Part shown: positions 28,369 to 39,522 of the stretch, piece after piece
Position numbering within the stretch: position 1 is the stretch's first letter
Layout of the letters: the number at the start of each line of letters is the position of its first letter
Source: Geothrix sp.
GTDB lineage: Bacteria > Acidobacteriota > Holophagae > Holophagales > Holophagaceae
Assembly (NCBI RefSeq): GCF_020622065.1
Contig: NZ_JAHRYQ010000001.1
Coordinates: 372,001-436,000 of the forward strand
Length of the DNA stretch: 64,000 nt
Direction: 5' to 3'
The notes under the pieces: generated by a model
The model's database searches: none
The model's input: only the letters and a program-made list of their open reading frames with translations
What the model was told of the DNA's origin: nothing
Translations under genes and position numbers: made by a program

Positions 28369-28483
28369 GTTGGCCCGGGGCTCGATGGAGGAACTTTTTT
28401 TGATATCGGATTGACAGGTCCGTTTTTTGTTTCATCCTGTTCCGGTGCGAGGCCGGAACCCCGCACATTCGGATGGACACCCC

Positions 28484-28981
28484 GTGAGCGGAAAGCGTCG
28501 CCTGTTCTTGTTGAGCATCCTTGCCAGCGTCTTCGCCGGCGTGTTCCTGGGGTCCGGGGCCTATACCTTCGTCTCGGCCCACGGCACTTCGTACCTGTCG
28601 AACGACCCCTCCGTGTGCGTGAACTGCCACATCATGCGCGAGGAGTACGACGGCTGGCGGCACGGGTCCCACCACGCCGTGGCCGTGTGCAACGACTGCC
28701 ACCTGCCCCACGACAACCCCGTGAACAAGCTCTTCGTGAAGGCCAGCAACGGCTATCACCACTCGAAGGCCTTCACCCTGCTGAATTTCCCCGAGCCCAT
28801 CCGCATCAAGCCCTCCAACGCCCAGGTGCTGGAGGACAACTGCCTGCGCTGCCACGGCGAGCTGGTGGGCGAGATCACCGCCCACGGCACCCTCGGCGTG
28901 CCCTCGGACCCGACGCAGAAGGCCGATCTCTACGGGTGCGTGCGCTGCCATCAGGAGGTGGGCCATGGGCCGACGCGCTGA
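28484..28981 (+). CDS. nrfH: Cytochrome c nitrite reductase small subunit (quinol dehydrogenase)
   Basis: NrfH is a membrane-anchored NapC/NirT-family tetraheme cytochrome that takes electrons from menaquinol and passes them to NrfA. The 165-residue product has one N-terminal membrane helix (about 5-28) and four CxxCH motifs (CVNCH, CNDCH, CLRCH, CVRCH). GTG at 28484 is chosen as the start because it precedes the membrane anchor; no strong Shine-Dalgarno is seen. A T-rich stretch with TTGACA (28411-28416) lies upstream. nrfA follows after 83 nt. Confidence 0.92.
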   Translation: MSGKRRLFLLSILASVFAGVFLGSGAYTFVSAHGTSYLSNDPSVCVNCHIMREEYDGWRHGSHHAVAVCNDCHLPHDNPVNKLFVKASNGYHHSKAFTLLNFPEPIRIKPSNAQVLEDNCLRCHGELVGEITAHGTLGVPSDPTQKADLYGCVRCHQEVGHGPTR

Positions 28982-29064
28982 TGTCCAGACGACTCACCAA
29001 GCCTTGACCTTCAACCCCTGACTCACCATTGGCGCGTGGAAACCCACGCGGGAGGACCTCCCCG

Positions 29065-30555
29065 ATGACCGACAACCCTACTCCGCTGCTCTCCCGTCCG
29101 GTGGTCCGGATGGGCCTCATCGCCGCCGGTGCGGCCTTGGCCACTGTGTTGGTGATGTCGCTGTATGCCAGCATCACCAACCGCAAGGCCGAGGCGAAGC
29201 AGACCAGCTTCAAGCTGGTGGACCTCGACGAGAAGACCGTCGATCCGGCCGTGTGGGGGAAGAACTTCCCCCGCCAGTTCGACGCCTACCAGCGCACCGC
29301 GGAGAAGTACAGCACCAAGTACGGCGGGGCCGGCAGCGAGGGACTGCCCAAGAGCCGCATCCAGGAGGATCCCCGGCTGGTGACGATCTTCGATGGCTAC
29401 GCCTTCGCCATCGACTTCAACCAGCGCCAGGGGCACGCCTACATGCTGGATGACCAGCGCAAGACCAAGCGCGTCACCGAGCGCAAGCAGCCCGGCGCCT
29501 GCCTCCACTGCCACGCCTCCAACACCGTGGCCTTCCGCGAGGTGGGCCTGAAGGGCGGCGCCCCCGGCACCCTGGACGAGGCCTTTACCAGCCCGAATGC
29601 CCAGGCCCAGCTCATGGCCGGCTTCGAGGCCATCTGCAAGATGCCCTACGCCGAGGCCAGCCAGCTCGTGAAGCATCCTGTGGCCTGCATCGACTGCCAC
29701 GATCCCAAGAACATGGCCCTTCGCGTCACCAAGCCCGGCTTCATCCGCGGGATCGACGCCCTGGCCAAGAGCGGCGAGCCTGTGCCGCACCTGCCCTCCA
29801 TCGAGAAGTGGCGCAAGGGCGACAAGACCGTGGCCTACGATGCCAACCGTGACGCCTCTCGCCAGGAGATGCGCTCCATGGTTTGCGGCCAGTGCCATGT
29901 GGAGTACTACTGCGGGCCCAAGGTCACGCTGTTCTTCCCTTGGAACAAGGGCCTGAAGGTCGAGCAGATCGAGGCGACCTACAACGACTACAAGTTCCCC
30001 GATGGCGGCCGCTTCTTCGACTGGAAGCACAGCAAGACCGGCGCGGAGGTCCTGAAGGCCCAGCACCCCGAGTTCGAGATGTGGAGCCAGGGCGTCCATG
30101 CCCGTTCCGGCGTGTCCTGCGCGGACTGCCACATGCCCTACCAGCGCGAGGGCGCCCTCAAGATCAGCGACCACCAGGTGCGGAGCCCTCTGCTTAACAT
30201 CTCCCGGGCCTGCCAGACCTGCCACCGCTTCCCCGAGGAAGAGCTGAAGGCCCGCGTGACGACCATCCAGGACCGCACGAAGGCCCTCATGGACCGGGCC
30301 GAGGACGCGGTGGTGGACCTCATCAACAACCTCGAGGCCGCCAAGAAGGCTGGTGTGGATGAAGCCAAGCTGAAGCCCATCTATGAGCTTCAGCGCAAGG
30401 CCCAGTGGCGTGTGGACTTCGTGAATGCCGAAAACTCCATGGGCTTCCACGCCCCCCAGGAAGCCGCCCGCATCCTCGGCGAGGCCATCGACTTCGGCCG
30501 CCAGGGCCAGGTCGCCCTGCGCGACCTGGGCGCGGCCAAGGTGGCCAAGAAGTAG
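29065..30555 (+). CDS. nrfA: Ammonia-forming cytochrome c nitrite reductase (NrfA), all-CxxCH type
   Basis: NrfA reduces nitrite to ammonium with six electrons in the periplasm. The 496-residue protein has an N-terminal membrane or signal segment (about 13-35) and five heme sites: CLHCH (146-150), CIDCH (208-212), CGQCH (274-278), CADCH and CQTCH. The catalytic-site Tyr is in CHVEYY and the His in GVHARSGVSC. In the best-known NrfA the first site is CxxCK, with Lys as heme ligand; here it is His, as in a minority branch of the family. GGAGG lies upstream of the ATG. Confidence 0.93.
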   Translation: MTDNPTPLLSRPVVRMGLIAAGAALATVLVMSLYASITNRKAEAKQTSFKLVDLDEKTVDPAVWGKNFPRQFDAYQRTAEKYSTKYGGAGSEGLPKSRIQEDPRLVTIFDGYAFAIDFNQRQGHAYMLDDQRKTKRVTERKQPGACLHCHASNTVAFREVGLKGGAPGTLDEAFTSPNAQAQLMAGFEAICKMPYAEASQLVKHPVACIDCHDPKNMALRVTKPGFIRGIDALAKSGEPVPHLPSIEKWRKGDKTVAYDANRDASRQEMRSMVCGQCHVEYYCGPKVTLFFPWNKGLKVEQIEATYNDYKFPDGGRFFDWKHSKTGAEVLKAQHPEFEMWSQGVHARSGVSCADCHMPYQREGALKISDHQVRSPLLNISRACQTCHRFPEEELKARVTTIQDRTKALMDRAEDAVVDLINNLEAAKKAGVDEAKLKPIYELQRKAQWRVDFVNAENSMGFHAPQEAARILGEAIDFGRQGQVALRDLGAAKVAKK

Positions 30556-30610: not shown

Positions 30611-31204
30611 TCATTTGGCGGTAAGAGATCCGAAGGCGATGTCGATGGGTGCGATCACACCGCCATTCGACAGGTTGTTCCCCGCGGAGAGGGTGAGGGG
30701 GACCGAGACACCCGTACCCACGGCGCCCGAGTTCAGGGCGAGGCAGACGCGGACGAGCGGTTGGCCGAGGGGGATGCTTCCCGAATTCTGGTACACCGCG
30801 CCGTGAAGGCTGCCCCCTCCTTTATCGAGTCCCACAAGGGCCTGGGGTCCAGGGAGGAGGTTGAATGCGACATTCTGCACCAGCCCGGAAGCCGTGGAAG
30901 GCGCAACCCAAGTGACCTTCGAGGCGTCTGTTTTCAGGATGAAGCTCAGGCCTTGACCGCTTTGCGCCGCCGGTCCCACGAGGTCCAGTACGAGCCGCGT
31001 GGGGGTGGAAAGGGCCTGGTTCGCCACGAAGCGGAACCCGTTGCCCGAGGGCGGATCCGCATAGACCAGCGCACTGGCCCAGGGCGAGGCGGGCGGGGTG
31101 GTGGAAGGAGCGGAAGTCCCACCACCACCTCCGCCCCCCCCGCAGGCGAAGGTCATCAAGAGCGCACACACGCAAATTCCTGGGTGGAGTCGAGTCCGGT
31201 TCAT
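30611..31204 (-). CDS. Putative lipoprotein with cohesin-like domain
   Basis: The 197-residue protein has a signal peptide ending in a relaxed lipobox (TFAC) followed by eight glycines, a typical exported-linker feature. The rest is all-beta and resembles a cohesin in length and layout: STPTRLVLDLVGPAAQSGQGLSF early, DASKVTWVAP, then GQPLVRVCLAL and a terminal PIDIAFGSLTAK strand. It starts 9 nt after the stop of the M4 protease gene, whose protein ends in a dockerin-like pair. I infer that it could anchor that protease at the surface. Cohesin identity is by eye only; another Ig-like fold is possible. Confidence 0.5.
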   Translation of the reverse strand: MNRTRLHPGICVCALLMTFACGGGGGGGGTSAPSTTPPASPWASALVYADPPSGNGFRFVANQALSTPTRLVLDLVGPAAQSGQGLSFILKTDASKVTWVAPSTASGLVQNVAFNLLPGPQALVGLDKGGGSLHGAVYQNSGSIPLGQPLVRVCLALNSGAVGTGVSVPLTLSAGNNLSNGGVIAPIDIAFGSLTAK

Positions 31205-31213
31205 GGGGGTTTC

Positions 31214-34200
31214 CTACAACGCGGCGATCAGGAGGGCAAGGTCGACATCATCCACGAACCCATCCCCGTTCAGATCCACGGGCGAGGTCGCGACGGCAAC
31301 TCCGGGCGCATAGGCCCGCATGAGAAAGGCGAGATCGAGCACATTCACGATGCCATCCCCGTTCAGGTCGCGACTCTTGGGGGAGACCGTCAGCGTGGCG
31401 TCGCCGCTGATGGCACTCCCGGCCCCGTTCGTGACCCGCACCGAGAATCGGGCGCCGTGGTCTGCTTGGCTGGTCGTGAATGTGTAGGCTGGCGCCGTCG
31501 CGGCGGAGATGTCCGTGTCGTTCTTGCGCCATTGATAAGACAAGGGCGTGGAGCCCGTGGCCGTCACGCTGAAGGTGATGGCGCTCCCAGGCACGGCGGA
31601 CTGGCTTTGGGGCTGAGTCGTGATGGTCGGGGCGACGAGGGCTGCAGTCACGGTCACGGTGGCGACGGAACTCAGGACGCTTCCCGCCGCATTGGCGACC
31701 CGGACCTGGTAGTTGCCTGCATCCGTTGCCTGGGCGGACGCGACCGTGAATGTGGAACTGGTGGCGCCGGTGATGTCCGAGCCGTCCTTCCGCCACTGGT
31801 AGGCGAGTGGGGCTGATCCCGTGGCGGATACGCCGAGGGTGATGAGAGTCCCGGTGGTCACGGATTGGCTTTGAGGCTGAGTCGTGATGGTCGGGGCGAC
31901 GAGGGCTGCAGTCACGGTCACGGTGGCGACGGAACTCAGGACGCTTCCCGCCGCATTGGCGACCCGGACCTGGTAGTTGCCTGCATCCGTTGCCTGGGCG
32001 GACGCGACCGTGAATGTGGAACTGGTGGCGCCGGTGATGTCCGAGCCGTCCTTCCGCCACTGGTAGGCGAGTGGGGCTGATCCCGTGGCGGATACGCCGA
32101 GGGTGATGAGAGTCCCGGTGGTCACGGATTGGCTTTGAGGCTGGGTCGTGATGGCTGGGGCGACGAGAGGGGGGAGGGTCACCGTCAACAGGGCGGCTGA
32201 ACTGGCGACGGTGCCAAGGCCGTTGCTGACTCTGACTTCATAGCTCCCTGCATCCACTTCGCGGACGGCCGCGAGGGTGAATGTTCGATTGGTGGCGCCG
32301 GGAATGTCGGAGCCATCCTTCCGCCACTGATAGGTAAGGGGGGAAGTGCCCGAAACATCGACGGAGAAAGTGACCGAGGCGCCCACCAGCGCAGACTGGC
32401 TCAAGGGTTGAGTCCGGATGGTGGGGGGAAGGGCGGCCTGGACGATCAGGTCGACCCTGTCCAGGTTGATGGCGAGGCCCTTGATCCCTCCGCCTGGCGG
32501 CAGATAAAGGGCATTGACGACAAGGGCCACGATCACTTCCTGGCCGCGATAGCCCTTCAGATCCACCTCTGCATTCCCGTAGAAGGGGTCTGTACCTGGT
32601 GGGGTGAACGAGGCCAGGGTCTCTTTCAGTGAACCATCGAGACCCCAAACCTGGACTTTCAGGGCATCATCCGGGGGATTGGAGAGGGACTGCATCCCAT
32701 AGCTGAACTTCAGCTTGGCCGAGTTGACCTCCAGGGGGATGGTGACGCGCTGGGACAGAGTCGCCAACGAAGGGGAGGTGCTGCCCCCATTGCCCACCAT
32801 GGTGGTCACCTGTGGGTCGTAGATCGACGATAAAAAGATGATGCCCCAGTTGGCGAAGGCCCACCCGGAATCCCCGAAATCGAAGCTGGGATTGTTCAAG
32901 AGCTGACTAAAGGTGTTGTCTGTCTGAAAGCTAATGGCGGGCGATGTGCCTTTGTTGCCAGCCTGGTCGTAAGCGTTCACCGAGAGCGCGTGGGCACCAT
33001 CGGAGAGAATCCGAGAATCGAAGAGGATGGTACGGGGGCCGTGGGTGGCCGTTCCCACCACCTGACCATCGACCAGGAAATCGACTCGGGTGATGGCGAG
33101 GTTGTCGCTGACATCGGCCGTGAGGTTGAGGGCTCCAAAAGTACCCGGAACGCCGCGGGCGCTGACGATGGGGGGCTCTGCATCCAGGACCTCCCCGATC
33201 CGGAGTGAAACATTGTCCAGCAGGAATTCCGTCAGCCCGACACCGGAGGTGTAGGCGCCGCCGGCGGCGCGTTCGATGGCCTCCATCGCATGGGGCCGTT
33301 CCGGCGCTGGCCATGGGAGTGCCAAGGGGGCTGTTGCGGCGACTGGCGCTTCCGCACCGTGGGGGAAGGAGGGGGTGGGGTGTGCTGCGTCTTCCTTCCC
33401 TTCGAACCAGAGTTGGATGGTCTTGCCCCGGTAGGCCGACAGATCGAGGGATCGCTGGAAGTAGTCCTTTTGTGCCGGAATGGCAATGGGGATCAGGCTG
33501 CGGTCCAGGTTGGAGTAGGTCGCCAGGGTTTCGATCAGCTCCCCGGCGGCGGATCGGACCTGAACTTGGAAGGTGTCTCTGGCCAGGCCATCCCGTTCTT
33601 GCGAGAAGACCTGAAGCCAGAAGGTCAGGACGGCGCTCTGGGCCTCGGCGGGGATGGTGATGGTTTGATGGATGGACTGGGTATTGGCGTCGCCCAAACC
33701 GCAAAAGGCCGCACACCACCGTCCGAGATAAGCTGTGCCAGGCCAATCACCCGTGATGATGCCCTGGGGATCCACCCAGGCCATGTTGTGCTTGTCGATG
33801 CCGCCATCCCAGACGCTGCCGTATTCGAAATCGCCTTGAAGCAGCAGCTCGTAGAAGGCGTTTGAGGTGGAGAAGGGGACTTCGGCCGAGCGGGTGGTGT
33901 TTCCCACCGAGTCGGTGGCCACCACGGTCAGAACATGGCTGCCCTTCGGGATTCTCCGAGAATCGAAGGATAGGTTCAGCGTCACATCGGTCTGGCCGCC
34001 CCCATTCGTGGTTTCGATCCTTTGCTGATCCACATAGAAGATCAGGCTGCCCACTCCGGTGTTGTCCTGGGCGTGAACCCCGAGAGCGATCATCCCCGTG
34101 GAACCGCTCACCGAGCCCGAGACCATCGGAGGGGTCAGGTCATCGCCGAGGCCCGAGGCGTATCCGACATTGATGGCGGCGAAGGCGTTCCGGACGGCCT

Positions 34201-35785
34201 GATATTCCGCGGAGCCTGCGCCGTAGAGATCGATGGCCGATCGAAGCGCGGCCATGCGTGCATGCAGGTAGTTGCTCGAGGAGGTGAGGTAGGTGGCCAG
34301 GGCCCGGTACCAGATCCGAGTGGCCCGGTCATTGCCGATCCCCGTCATACCCGCGGGAAGATAGGAGGAGAAGGCCGTCGAGGCAGAGTTGGAAGCAGCC
34401 CCTTGGGAAAGAAAGTAGAAACAGCGGTTCATGGGGCCGCTGCCGTAATGGACATCCAGGTTGAGGAGGCTCGTCGACCAGGCATCCGGGCTCATGCCGT
34501 CGAGACTCGGCTTGTACATGTACCGTAGCGGCCGGTCGAAGGCAGGGGTCTTCATCTGCTCGCCGATGGTCCAGTTCCCGCCTGCATCCGGAAGGACCGC
34601 GCCAGCGCCCCCGGCGCCTCGGGCGTAGAATTCGACCATGGTTCCGAGGATGTCCGAGGTTGCTTCGTTCAGGGATCCGGACTCTCCCATGTACACGAGA
34701 TTGGCCGTGGTCGAAGTGACGCCATGGCTGAACTCGTGGCCGACCACATCCAGCGCGGTCAGGGTCAGGAACTTGTCTCCGTCACCGAAGGTGAGGCAGA
34801 AGCACTCGTTCCACCAGAAGGCATTGTCGTACTGGCTTCCGAAGTGAACACGGGCCCGGGTGGGCGTTCCCTTCCCGTCGATCCCATTCCGACCCAGGAC
34901 CTGCTGATAGAAATCCCAGGTCACCTGAGTGCCAAAATGCGCATCCACAGCGGCCGTCTGCCCGTTGGTGGAATTCGTCGGAGTGCCGATGGCATACTGA
35001 AGGCCATCTCCCCAGACATTGTCGGCATCCGCGTAGAGGCTCCCCGCAGACGCCATGTCCCAGCTGTGCCCCAGATCCAATGTCGCATTGCCGGCCCGGC
35101 TGAGGTCCCTCAGTTCGAAGCCCGGGCCCCCCGCGGTGGTGGATAGGGTGACGGTTCCGTTGTACTGGGAGTTCCCGGTGCCGAGGGTGCTCTGCAGGGC
35201 GTTCCATTTGCGCAGGATGGACCCGTCATGGGCATCCACCAGGTAACCGGCGGAGATCACGCCATCCCGGCTGTTGCCGAAGGCGGCCTCGACGAAATAG
35301 GCCAATCGGTATCCGGTGGGCTTTTCCAGGATTTCGACGGCGTTGAGAGGATCACCCGCCCGGACCGGCAGACCGGTCGTTCGATGGAACCGTTCCACTT
35401 GAGGCAGGACGACCAGCTCGACCTTCGGCTCTTTCGCGAAGGGGCCCGCGCTGTTCAGGTCCGCCGACACGATCCAGAGGGCCTCCGACGCCGTCAGGCT
35501 GGGACTCGTGTTGAGGGGAATCTCACCGGGCGTCGGGTCGGTGATGAGGTAATCCCCCCCCTTGGTCCGGGAGTGGATGATGCCGTCGCCACCCCACACG
35601 CGGAGGCCCTGGTGGGTCCGAAGGAACCGGGTGTGCGTCGATTCGTCCCGGTCCTGCTGGATGGATAGGATCCGTCTTTCGCCGGAGTCCCTCGGTACCG
35701 TTCCCCAGGCGCTGCTGGTGAGGGTCAGGCCCAGGAGCGTGAGGGCGGCGAGTTGGGATGTGGCAGGCCGTAATTTGGGGCGCAA
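31214..35785 (-). CDS. Secreted M4 (thermolysin-family) metallopeptidase with Ig-like repeats and dockerin
   Basis: The 1523-residue protein has a signal peptide (1-28) and a propeptide (about 35-200). The M4 catalytic domain (about 205-545) has zinc motif HEFSH at 350-354, the third ligand E374 in NEATSD, and the later active-site His in VHYGSGPMN. Beta domains with LxFDSRxxxxGxHxLxVxAxD repeats follow (about 550-1090). Four Ig-like modules come next (about 1110-1460, each with YQWRK). The C-terminus has two calcium-loop repeats DLNGDGIVNVLDL and DLNGDGFVDDVDL, as in type I dockerins. The start is TTG 35785, with GGAGGG upstream. It should be secreted and zymogen-activated; the dockerin suggests docking to a cohesin partner. 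Confidence 0.88.
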   Translation of the reverse strand: MRPKLRPATSQLAALTLLGLTLTSSAWGTVPRDSGERRILSIQQDRDESTHTRFLRTHQGLRVWGGDGIIHSRTKGGDYLITDPTPGEIPLNTSPSLTASEALWIVSADLNSAGPFAKEPKVELVVLPQVERFHRTTGLPVRAGDPLNAVEILEKPTGYRLAYFVEAAFGNSRDGVISAGYLVDAHDGSILRKWNALQSTLGTGNSQYNGTVTLSTTAGGPGFELRDLSRAGNATLDLGHSWDMASAGSLYADADNVWGDGLQYAIGTPTNSTNGQTAAVDAHFGTQVTWDFYQQVLGRNGIDGKGTPTRARVHFGSQYDNAFWWNECFCLTFGDGDKFLTLTALDVVGHEFSHGVTSTTANLVYMGESGSLNEATSDILGTMVEFYARGAGGAGAVLPDAGGNWTIGEQMKTPAFDRPLRYMYKPSLDGMSPDAWSTSLLNLDVHYGSGPMNRCFYFLSQGAASNSASTAFSSYLPAGMTGIGNDRATRIWYRALATYLTSSSNYLHARMAALRSAIDLYGAGSAEYQAVRNAFAAINVGYASGLGDDLTPPMVSGSVSGSTGMIALGVHAQDNTGVGSLIFYVDQQRIETTNGGGQTDVTLNLSFDSRRIPKGSHVLTVVATDSVGNTTRSAEVPFSTSNAFYELLLQGDFEYGSVWDGGIDKHNMAWVDPQGIITGDWPGTAYLGRWCAAFCGLGDANTQSIHQTITIPAEAQSAVLTFWLQVFSQERDGLARDTFQVQVRSAAGELIETLATYSNLDRSLIPIAIPAQKDYFQRSLDLSAYRGKTIQLWFEGKEDAAHPTPSFPHGAEAPVAATAPLALPWPAPERPHAMEAIERAAGGAYTSGVGLTEFLLDNVSLRIGEVLDAEPPIVSARGVPGTFGALNLTADVSDNLAITRVDFLVDGQVVGTATHGPRTILFDSRILSDGAHALSVNAYDQAGNKGTSPAISFQTDNTFSQLLNNPSFDFGDSGWAFANWGIIFLSSIYDPQVTTMVGNGGSTSPSLATLSQRVTIPLEVNSAKLKFSYGMQSLSNPPDDALKVQVWGLDGSLKETLASFTPPGTDPFYGNAEVDLKGYRGQEVIVALVVNALYLPPGGGIKGLAINLDRVDLIVQAALPPTIRTQPLSQSALVGASVTFSVDVSGTSPLTYQWRKDGSDIPGATNRTFTLAAVREVDAGSYEVRVSNGLGTVASSAALLTVTLPPLVAPAITTQPQSQSVTTGTLITLGVSATGSAPLAYQWRKDGSDITGATSSTFTVASAQATDAGNYQVRVANAAGSVLSSVATVTVTAALVAPTITTQPQSQSVTTGTLITLGVSATGSAPLAYQWRKDGSDITGATSSTFTVASAQATDAGNYQVRVANAAGSVLSSVATVTVTAALVAPTITTQPQSQSAVPGSAITFSVTATGSTPLSYQWRKNDTDISAATAPAYTFTTSQADHGARFSVRVTNGAGSAISGDATLTVSPKSRDLNGDGIVNVLDLAFLMRAYAPGVAVATSPVDLNGDGFVDDVDLALLIAAL
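31611..32138 (-). repeat. Perfect 264-bp tandem duplication inside the M4 protease gene
   Basis: Positions 31611-31874 and 31875-32138 appear identical base for base. The unit is 88 codons and encodes one whole Ig-like module, so copy-number change keeps the frame. The flanking Ig-like modules are similar in protein but diverged in DNA, so this duplication is recent or maintained by gene conversion. Confidence 0.93.
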
Positions 35786-37106: not shown

Positions 37107-37721
37107 CTAGTCTGTCCAGAAGGCGGTGAAGGGCGCCGGATCCCACTCGGTCTTCGATCGTTGGAATCGGGCCAGCAACCCCCGCGATGCTGGTACCTCC
37201 ACCAGGACGGCATGGCCTCCGGCGTAGAGGAGGCTCCACAGCGCGGCGCGAAGGGGATTCTCGCGGAGGTGGGCCAGGGGCAGGTCCACGCGGGTGTCGT
37301 GGTCCCAGCCGAGGGTCCGGTTCAAGCGCTGGAGGCGCAGCATCAACTCGCCGTGGGAGAGCCCCGCGGAGAAGGGCGTGGACACGGAGACGCTCTGTTC
37401 CCGGGTGTGGTAGGGGCCCCGGCCTTCGTCCAGGTTGAACCGGGACCCCCCGAGAATCTCCCAGGGCACGGCCCACCCTTCAGCGTCCCAGGCCAGGCCC
37501 GAGGCCGCGGCCGCCAGCTCGGCGGCCCAGTCCCAGGGCGTTCCGGTGGCGCTGAAGACCACCGGGGCTGGCGAGGCGGCCAATAGGCCCAGGGCCACGC
37601 CCTCGGCGCGGTTGCGGAGCTGTGCGTAGGACAGGGTGCCCCACCCCGGGGCCGTCAGGGCCGGGCGGCCCTGGAGCCGCGCCGCGCGCTGGATGAGGAG
37701 GTCCCGCAGGGTCGACGCCAT
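37107..37721 (-). CDS. Truncated adenylate-forming (ANL) domain protein
   Basis: The 204-residue protein starts like an acyl-CoA synthetase N-terminus (LRDLLIQRAARLQGRPALTA...LSYAQLRNRAEGVALGLLA) and has the later LPLAHLRENPL...LLYAGGHAVL segment. The ATP-binding YTSGTTGxPKG loop is replaced by STPFSAGLSHGEL, and the whole C-terminal half of the family is missing. It is probably not an active synthetase; either a relic or a protein reused for another role. The start at 37721 lacks a clear Shine-Dalgarno. Divergent from the DUF4382 gene. Confidence 0.6.
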   Translation of the reverse strand: MASTLRDLLIQRAARLQGRPALTAPGWGTLSYAQLRNRAEGVALGLLAASPAPVVFSATGTPWDWAAELAAAASGLAWDAEGWAVPWEILGGSRFNLDEGRGPYHTREQSVSVSTPFSAGLSHGELMLRLQRLNRTLGWDHDTRVDLPLAHLRENPLRAALWSLLYAGGHAVLVEVPASRGLLARFQRSKTEWDPAPFTAFWTD

Positions 37722-37854
37722 GGCGAAGTATCGCAAGGCGAGGGCCGGATCCGCAAAATCAAACCGCCTCAACCCTCCTCCTGGGGGGTGGGTCAGTGGG
37801 GTATCCGTTTCCCTCTCCCTCCCGGAGCCTCGGCTCCGCCCCTTTGGAGATCCC

Positions 37855-39522
37855 ATGCGTCCCGCGTTCCGAAGTCTTTCCCTGGCGGCGCTTCCCCTCA
37901 GCCTAGGCGCCTTGGCGCTTGGTCTGGCCTGCAGCGGCGGTTCTTCTGGTGGCTCCGCCGCGACTCCGGCCTCCACCCCCATGGGCGCCGCCTCGATCAT
38001 CCTCACGGACGCCCCCTCGGACCAGTGGTCGGCCATCGAGGTGGTCGTCACCAGGGTGACCTTGCTGAACAAGACCGACCATAGCAAGGAAGTCGTGGCC
38101 TTCCAGGGTGCCACCGCCAAGATCAACCTCGTGGATCTCGACAGCGTGGGCGAGTTGCTCGCCACGGCTCAGATCCCCGTGGGCACCTATGACGCCTTGC
38201 GCATCACGATCGATCCCGCCAGCGTGAACCTGGTGAAGGCCGACGGCAGCTCCGTGCCCAGCAACCTGGTGCGCGTAGCGGGTTCCACAGTGCAGGTGGG
38301 GTTGAGCTCGGACCTGGTGGTGACAGCCAGTGGCAACAATGCCGTGCAGCTGGACTTCGACCTCGGGCATCCGCTGTTCCTGGTGCCGCTGCCGGACGGC
38401 TCCTGGGTCATGAACCTCCAGGTGAAGCACCGCCCCAACGCCAACGGCATGATGGGCATGGCTCAGATGGCTTTCCGCCACCGCCGCGGCACCATCGCCT
38501 CCGTGGGCGCCTCGAGCTTCGTTCTGCACACCGACAGTGGGAACGATCTCACGGTGAATGTGGATGCGGGCAGCTGGTTCTTCGATGCGGATGCCAAGGC
38601 CGTGGGCAGCTTGGCAGGCCTGGCCCCAGGCAAGAACGCGCTGGTGTCACTGCGCATGCAAGCCGACGGCAGCCTCTGGGCCGTGCGCGTGTGGTACGGC
38701 GCCAACGCCCTGCCGGGCTGGACGCCCGAAGGCCATGTCTATGGCGTGGATCAGGCCATGGGTCGCCTGCTGGTCAGCACCAATGCCAGCACCCCCCGGG
38801 CCATTGCCATTGATGCGGATACCGCCTTCACCTTCCGCACGAGCCAGACCCTTGGCACAGGCCCGGCGGCCCTCGCCAACCTGTGGACGGGTTTCAAGGT
38901 GCAGGTCGAAGTGAAGGACCCGCTCCAGGTGCCCATGCATGCCAAATCGGTGAACATCCAGCGGGCGGTGGACGGAGGCGTGATCAAGGCGGCCACCGCC
39001 ACCTCCTTCACCTACCAGCATTTGCTGGCCGGCGATCGAATGCATGCCTACGCCAATGCCTTCTCCTGGTGGTATCTCGGCTTCCCCGGCGCGACCTCCG
39101 GGAGCAGCGGCGCCTTCGCGGCCGCTGTCACCGGTGCGGGTGATGTGCGCGTGCAGGGCGTGAGCGACCTGGTGTGGAACGGCGGCACCAGCGCCTGGGA
39201 TGCCAGCAACGCCATCTTCCTGCCCGTGGCCCTGCCCCAGGGCGCCATCAGCACCTCGTACAGCGGCGGCCAGATGGGGTTCACCTTCACCAATTCCACT
39301 GTGGCCACCCAGACCATCTCGGTCAGCCTGAACACCGTCGTGGGGGCCCAACCGGTGGTGTTGGAAGTGGTCAACCAGGCCGGTACGGTCACGGTCCTGC
39401 CCCTCGATGCCAGCACCTGGGGCGCCAAGCTCGTCAGTCCCGCCAAGGCCCGCGTGGCCGTCGTGCCCAAACCCGATGGAAGCTTCGCCGCCTACGCGGT
39501 GGTGGTGTTCACCGGGTTCTGA
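37855..39522 (+). CDS. DUF4382-domain lipoprotein
   Basis: The 555-residue protein has a signal peptide with a lipobox-like LGLACSGGSSGG and a Gly/Ser linker. A DUF4382 domain follows (about 45-190: GAASIILTDAPSDQWSAIEVVVTRVTLLN...IPVGTYDALRITIDPA...VQLDFDLGHPLFLV). The remaining 350 residues are beta-rich, with DUF5666-like strands. Function is unknown; such proteins are expected on the outer membrane. The ATG at 37855 has TGGAGA 7-12 nt upstream. A long hairpin follows the stop. Confidence 0.75.
   Translation: MRPAFRSLSLAALPLSLGALALGLACSGGSSGGSAATPASTPMGAASIILTDAPSDQWSAIEVVVTRVTLLNKTDHSKEVVAFQGATAKINLVDLDSVGELLATAQIPVGTYDALRITIDPASVNLVKADGSSVPSNLVRVAGSTVQVGLSSDLVVTASGNNAVQLDFDLGHPLFLVPLPDGSWVMNLQVKHRPNANGMMGMAQMAFRHRRGTIASVGASSFVLHTDSGNDLTVNVDAGSWFFDADAKAVGSLAGLAPGKNALVSLRMQADGSLWAVRVWYGANALPGWTPEGHVYGVDQAMGRLLVSTNASTPRAIAIDADTAFTFRTSQTLGTGPAALANLWTGFKVQVEVKDPLQVPMHAKSVNIQRAVDGGVIKAATATSFTYQHLLAGDRMHAYANAFSWWYLGFPGATSGSSGAFAAAVTGAGDVRVQGVSDLVWNGGTSAWDASNAIFLPVALPQGAISTSYSGGQMGFTFTNSTVATQTISVSLNTVVGAQPVVLEVVNQAGTVTVLPLDASTWGAKLVSPAKARVAVVPKPDGSFAAYAVVVFTGF

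Follow-up and report, generated by a model that had tools for sequence, protein, structure and literature searches.

A secreted thermolysin-type protease of Geothrix and the short lipoprotein encoded directly behind it very probably constitute a private cohesin-dockerin tether. The observed dockerin of the protease, the observed lipobox of its neighbor and the adjacency and co-divergence of the two genes stand together with a predicted cohesin fold in the lipoprotein; that the two proteins bind each other, and do so pair by pair, is inferred. The initial annotation had proposed a two-gene device in which a cohesin of the lipoprotein holds the secreted protease, and this proposal is supported by the dockerin, the predicted cohesin fold and the adjacency, with binding and surface display resting on inference. 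It holds and it reaches wider than first stated, the pairing being found across the Holophagaceae. Dockerins are scattered through bacteria without a recognizable cohesin and, to our knowledge, the binding partners of such dockerins are usually unknown.

Organization of the protease and lipoprotein genes

The features of the locus are compiled in Table 1, with positions referring to the window, i.e., the whole stretch of 64,000 nucleotides of DNA that was analyzed (G000:C1:372001-436000). From its named relatives the genome is assigned to Geothrix within the Holophagaceae, Acidobacteriota. The protease contains the Pfam domains FTP, Peptidase_M4, Peptidase_M4_C, Big_7 repeats, four immunoglobulin domains and Dockerin_1. 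With scores of 142 bits for PF01447 and 146 bits for PF02868, and with the HEFSH motif and a downstream glutamate, it satisfies the criterion for an M4 peptidase. A type I dockerin is defined by a duplicated DxNxDGxxxxxD loop plus helix at a protein terminus, and this is satisfied by the protease end: all calcium positions are occupied in both loops, and an AlphaFold2 single-chain model predicts a helix after each of them. Dockerin_1 (PF00404) reached 33 bits in the protein scan and 39.5 bits in the genome scan, the Pfam cut-off being 22.9 bits. Thus, the two calcium loops with type I dockerin spacing that had been noticed at the protease end were borne out, as was the short gene nine nucleotides past the protease stop with its signal peptide, relaxed lipobox and poly-Gly stretch, which is evident from the open reading frames and the sequence.

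Table 1. Features of the protease-lipoprotein locus in the window
Feature	Position	Strand	Basis
M4 (thermolysin-type) protease, secreted, 1523 aa, TTG start, signal peptide, dockerin-ended	31214..35785	-	ORF, Pfam
FTP propeptide motif of the protease, residues 38-73	35567..35674	-	Pfam
Peptidase_M4 and Peptidase_M4_C catalytic domains, residues 202-540, HEFSH...E active site	34166..35182	-	Pfam, sequence
Protease stalk of four immunoglobulin domains (I-set/Ig_3), residues ~1120-1468	31382..32428	-	Pfam
Type I dockerin of the protease, residues 1473-1523	31217..31369	-	PF00404
First calcium loop of the dockerin, DLNGDGIVNVLD	31334..31369	-	Sequence
Second calcium loop of the dockerin, DLNGDGFVDDVD	31241..31276	-	Sequence
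Intergenic spacer, 9 nt, protease TAG stop to lipoprotein ATG, one frame	31205..31213	-	Sequence
Lipoprotein, 197 aa: signal peptide, lipobox, Gly linker, cohesin-fold domain	30611..31204	-	ORF, AlphaFold2, Foldseek
Signal peptide and relaxed lipobox MTFAC, Cys21	31142..31204	-	Sequence
Lipoprotein linker, poly-Gly and Ser/Thr/Pro-rich, residues 22-39	31088..31141	-	Sequence
Predicted cohesin-fold beta-sandwich domain, residues 40-197 (158 aa)	30614..31087	-	AlphaFold2, PDB fold matches

The lipobox of the window copy is relaxed by a threonine at position -3, its orthologue in genome G032 reads ITLAC and most relatives have LLAC or LTAC. The lipobox pattern was matched in 88 of 99 family members and most of the others were recognized by eye; the cysteine is usually followed by glycine, and a signal peptide is likewise present in nearly all members. 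Since there is no aspartate at position +2 after Cys21, anchoring is most likely in the outer membrane. The distance from the cysteine to the domain varies from 9 to more than 300 amino acids across members, and the added part of the long members consists, where identifiable, of InlB-type or Ig repeats. Such extra repeats between lipobox and cohesin domain, forming longer stalks, were seen at L036, L013, L016, L012 and L046. That the C-terminal domain stays constant while the stalk changes in length is what one would expect of a tether.

Predicted cohesin fold of the lipoprotein domain

Residues 40-197 of the lipoprotein were modeled by AlphaFold2 as an all-beta domain with a pLDDT of 93.2 and a pTM of 0.89 from an alignment with 34 homologues. 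A Foldseek comparison with the PDB gave 19 matches at E ≤ 1e-3, every one of them a cohesin (19/19), the best one being the Acetivibrio cohesin 5nrm_A, the structure of which was solved in complex with a dockerin. The target-normalized TM-scores of the PDB matches lie mostly between 0.5 and 0.7, and two CBM2 chains are found among the lower-ranked matches. In a second AlphaFold2 model based on a different alignment cohesins again ranked first. The fold of the domain is therefore predicted with high confidence to be that of a cohesin, as the initial annotation had supposed.

At the level of sequence profiles the two partners differ: the dockerin lies above the Pfam cut-off and the lipoprotein has no match to the cohesin family PF00963. 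Searches of Pfam, NCBIfam and PDB sequences returned no named relative of the lipoprotein, and no match to PF00963 was obtained for any of 46 lipoprotein members. A profile-profile comparison by hhalign with 18 Pfam-type cohesins gave a probability of 1%, which is not significant, with a plausible aligned register. Because both the PF00963 search and the profile comparison were negative, the domain is termed cohesin-fold and not a member of PF00963. Common descent with the known cohesins is likely, albeit not shown.

As both genes share one frame, reading the TAG stop as glycine gives a single chain of dockerin, linker and cohesin. For this read-through chain AlphaFold2 returned a pTM of 0.67 with a good cohesin and with the two dockerin helices at a pLDDT of 55-72, using a block alignment with only three fused rows. 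No confident complex was obtained in this way, an outcome that speaks neither for nor against binding.

Every assessable C-terminal PF00404 dockerin in the genus genomes scanned has a lipoprotein neighbor

Only two PF00404 dockerins are encoded in the 3.35 Mb genome, and each is adjoined by the lipoprotein or its paralogue. In the second pair (G000:C2:692644-695775; L002 19-2264) a sortilin/BNR propeller protein, whose dockerin is of a different type, is followed by a lipoprotein paralogue that is 40% identical to the window copy; the stop of the sortilin/BNR gene overlaps the lipoprotein start. A Pfam search of the same genome found no PF00963 cohesin. In the own genome plus 36 genomes of the same genus 40 PF00404 dockerins were found, of which three were left out, namely two internal dockerins in long proteins (L050, L054) and one cut by a contig end (L006). 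All assessable C-terminal dockerins (37/37) adjoin a lipoprotein member.

Several apparent exceptions were dismissed. The long same-genus proteins at L050 (G029:C243) and L054 (G030:C403), in which dockerin-like repeats lie internally and Pfam-type cohesin domains are present, represent a separate system. The dockerin at G015:C30 is not without a lipoprotein, which is its upstream gene, and the lipoproteins of G005, G011, G019, G028 and G034 are not dockerin-less, their dockerins being divergent or below the threshold. At L106 1900-2450 (G036:C237) a lipoprotein is reduced to its C-terminal half, and protease, dockerin and lipobox are missing. This remnant adjoins a WYL regulator gene, seemingly the one that also borders the protease in the window, and is apparently a deletion relic.

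Pairing across the Holophagaceae as seen from the lipoprotein

A search starting from the lipoprotein in Holophagaceae and a few other genomes, with the neighborhoods read, yielded 101 distinct sequences. Two were excluded: L221, which was rejected as a family member having a weak partial match only, and L208, which is cut off. Among the assessable members 98 of 99 adjoin a gene on the same strand with a dockerin or dockerin-like end. This number includes two members that are the halves of a single frameshifted gene, four with weak profile scores, L212/L213, where the dockerin match is not at the extreme end of the gene, and L141:2640-3473, where the dockerin gene lies downstream and outside the overlap limit of the script. 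The dockerin profile was partly derived from the same loci, including six divergent ends, so that the divergent dockerin calls are less independent than those by PF00404. The dockerin gene lies upstream of the lipoprotein in 87 members and downstream in at least 10, and the partner dockerins at L099, L100 and L197 have degenerate calcium loops. The sole real exception is L134 (PLUC01000054.1, 5854-6474), for which no dockerin gene was present within the fetched contig flanks. Frequent occurrence of the lipoprotein without a dockerin gene had been named as an outcome that would refute the tether, and it is not what is found.

This near universal adjacency also bears on the question whether the cohesin-like jelly-roll binds something else, such as a glycan, matrix or substrate, with the dockerin binding another protein. 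This is very unlikely. Cohesins, which bind dockerins, make up all of the best fold matches; moreover, the genome offers no other recognizable cohesin for its two dockerins. What can be said for a different ligand is that the cohesin fold is common to CBM2/CBM3-type modules, including the two lower-ranked CBM2 chains, that sequence homology to cohesins is not detectable and that the AlphaFold2 complex of the read-through chain is without confidence.

Tandem arrays in which the lipoprotein alternates with a dockerin-ended gene, an M4 protease where classified, occur at L141, L193, L197 and L198 and carry a divergent dockerin type (DALDLGPIAFSW...). The same pair type is present at L146, L148 and L138 in metagenome-assembled genomes labeled Betaproteobacteria or Proteobacteria, which reflects either inter-phylum transfer or contig misbinning.

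Partner classes and co-divergence

The partner proteins comprise M4 thermolysin-type, M6, C1 papain, C10 streptopain, C39-like and pro-kumamolisin (S53-type) proteases and sortilin/BNR proteins, the latter being the commonest class with 35 of 63 classified pairs. YWTD-like propellers, named by eye without a Pfam match, are also among the partners. As the partner classes are this diverse and the dockerin is their common element, no single catalytic fold accounts for the lipoprotein.

Distances between lipoproteins correlate with those between dockerins (r 0.77, p 5e-4, 82 pairs), and the agreement falls from 0.83 to 0.50 (p 0.002) when dockerins are shuffled between the paralogues within a genome. 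With the catalytic class held constant the partial correlation of lipoprotein and dockerin distance is 0.71, whereas it is 0.14 for lipoprotein distance and class with the dockerin held constant. C10 and M6 proteases with dockerins of 63-74% identity have lipoproteins that are 60-62% identical, and M4 proteases with unlike dockerins (17-23% identity) have lipoproteins of about 30% identity. As judged from these sequence comparisons, the lipoprotein diverges with the dockerin and not with the catalytic class. Linkage may supply some of the correlation, because linked genes co-diverge and the dockerin end usually adjoins the lipoprotein start; the swap and class tests lessen this effect and do not remove it.

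It was considered that the lipoprotein might serve the adjacent protease as its dedicated inhibitor, foldase or immunity protein and make no contact to the dockerin. Protease inhibitors or chaperones are often encoded by small neighboring genes and numerous partners are proteases with propeptides, but the top partner class is a non-protease, one lipoprotein type is common to unrelated catalytic folds with a common dockerin type, and lipoprotein divergence tracks the dockerin and not the class. The predicted cohesin fold of the domain likewise speaks against this idea, which was rejected on the catalytic-class test and appears hardly tenable.

Up to four to five lipoprotein members are encoded per genome, and the cohesins of cellulosomes accept many dockerins, both of which would suit a larger scaffold in which the lipoprotein takes up the dockerins of many enzymes and not that of its neighbor alone. 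This remains unlikely, as there is a single cohesin domain per member, every dockerin is accompanied by a neighbor of its own and the paralogous pairs diverge jointly. The long members were rejected as multi-domain scaffoldins, their identifiable repeats being InlB or Ig stalks and not further cohesins.

Proposed tether

In the private tether that is favored here, the exported protease would carry a calcium-loaded dockerin at its C-terminus, and the lipoprotein would be held by a lipid anchor at Cys21. The outer membrane is its most likely site, with the leaflet, and thus display at the cell surface rather than on the periplasmic side, being inferred. Secretins are present and type II export of the protease is possible. 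The single cohesin-fold domain of the lipoprotein, borne on a flexible linker rich in glycine, would then catch the dockerin, a step that gene pairing and co-divergence support and for which there are no binding data, and the captured enzyme would be kept on the envelope rather than lost by diffusion. The presumed benefit is that products of proteolysis are kept close to the cell. Each dockerin gene has its own cohesin lipoprotein next to it and several paralogous pairs could therefore work in parallel.

Comparison with known cohesin-dockerin systems

The clostridial cellulosome type I pairs (PF00963/PF00404) resemble the Geothrix system in the enzyme-borne C-terminal dockerin with two calcium loops and in a partner of cohesin fold. 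In contrast, the Geothrix system has no scaffoldin and no repeated cohesins, and the partners scanned include no carbohydrate enzymes; the dockerin is matched with a lipoprotein of a diderm that contains a single cohesin, is not matched by PF00963 and would serve as a private socket per enzyme, and the dockerin halves differ at loop positions 10-11 (VL and DV). A scaffoldin is characterized by several cohesins and/or a carbohydrate-binding module and by carbohydrate-active partners, which the lipoprotein family does not meet. The cohesins of Clostridium perfringens glycosidases (2jh2, 2o4e, 2vo8) are likewise non-cellulosomal and among the best fold matches of the lipoprotein; however, they form part of the enzyme, in a Gram-positive organism, whereas the Geothrix cohesin would be the membrane anchor.

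Among published ideas, the hypothetical planctosome of the Nemodlikiaceae (Planctomycetes) comes nearest, in which peptidases are proposed to be tethered to the outer membrane by cohesin-dockerin pairs outside cellulose degradation (PMC6461901). Unlike the Geothrix system it involves a 2210-aa lamin-tail anchor, an adaptor protein and M12B/M14 peptidases (PMC6461901). The lamin-tail anchor with P-domains and cohesin and the adaptor define the planctosome; the 197-aa lipoprotein has none of these domains, and in the Geothrix type every partner gene shares an operon with its short lipoprotein anchor. Non-cellulosomal cohesins and dockerins at the cell surface are also described for ANME archaea and their sulfate-reducing partners, which are recognized by domain libraries, in some cases contain several cohesins and are viewed as adhesion or assembly factors, with no universal operon pairing reported in the accessible parts of these sources (PMC9012536, PMC10553843).

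In the literature searched, from which subscription papers were mostly absent, there was no paper on this lipoprotein family, and the sole paper naming both Geothrix and dockerin merely counts domains. On balance we favor the broader view that the Holophagaceae use mutually specific, sequence-cryptic cohesin-dockerin pairs, one operon each, to array several secreted proteases together with propeller proteins at the outer membrane, and that orphan dockerins elsewhere may likewise pair with unrecognized cohesin-fold neighbors. A whole bacterial family has a predicted cohesin-fold partner unseen by domain libraries, one per dockerin and nearly always adjacent, which opens the orphan-dockerin question to direct testing. 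It would be a second protease-tethering system alongside the hypothetical planctosome. For surface display in Gram-negatives it would provide dozens of naturally occurring cohesin-dockerin pairs that may be orthogonal and whose lipid anchors are short.

Two further observations concern the surroundings of the locus. Convergent to the lipoprotein gene, NrfH/NrfA-like multihaem cytochrome genes, named by eye, lie at 28427-30555 (+) of the window, and at 37636-39522 (+) a DUF4382/DUF5666 protein is encoded in which a lipobox-like cysteine is followed by a Ser/Gly-rich stretch.
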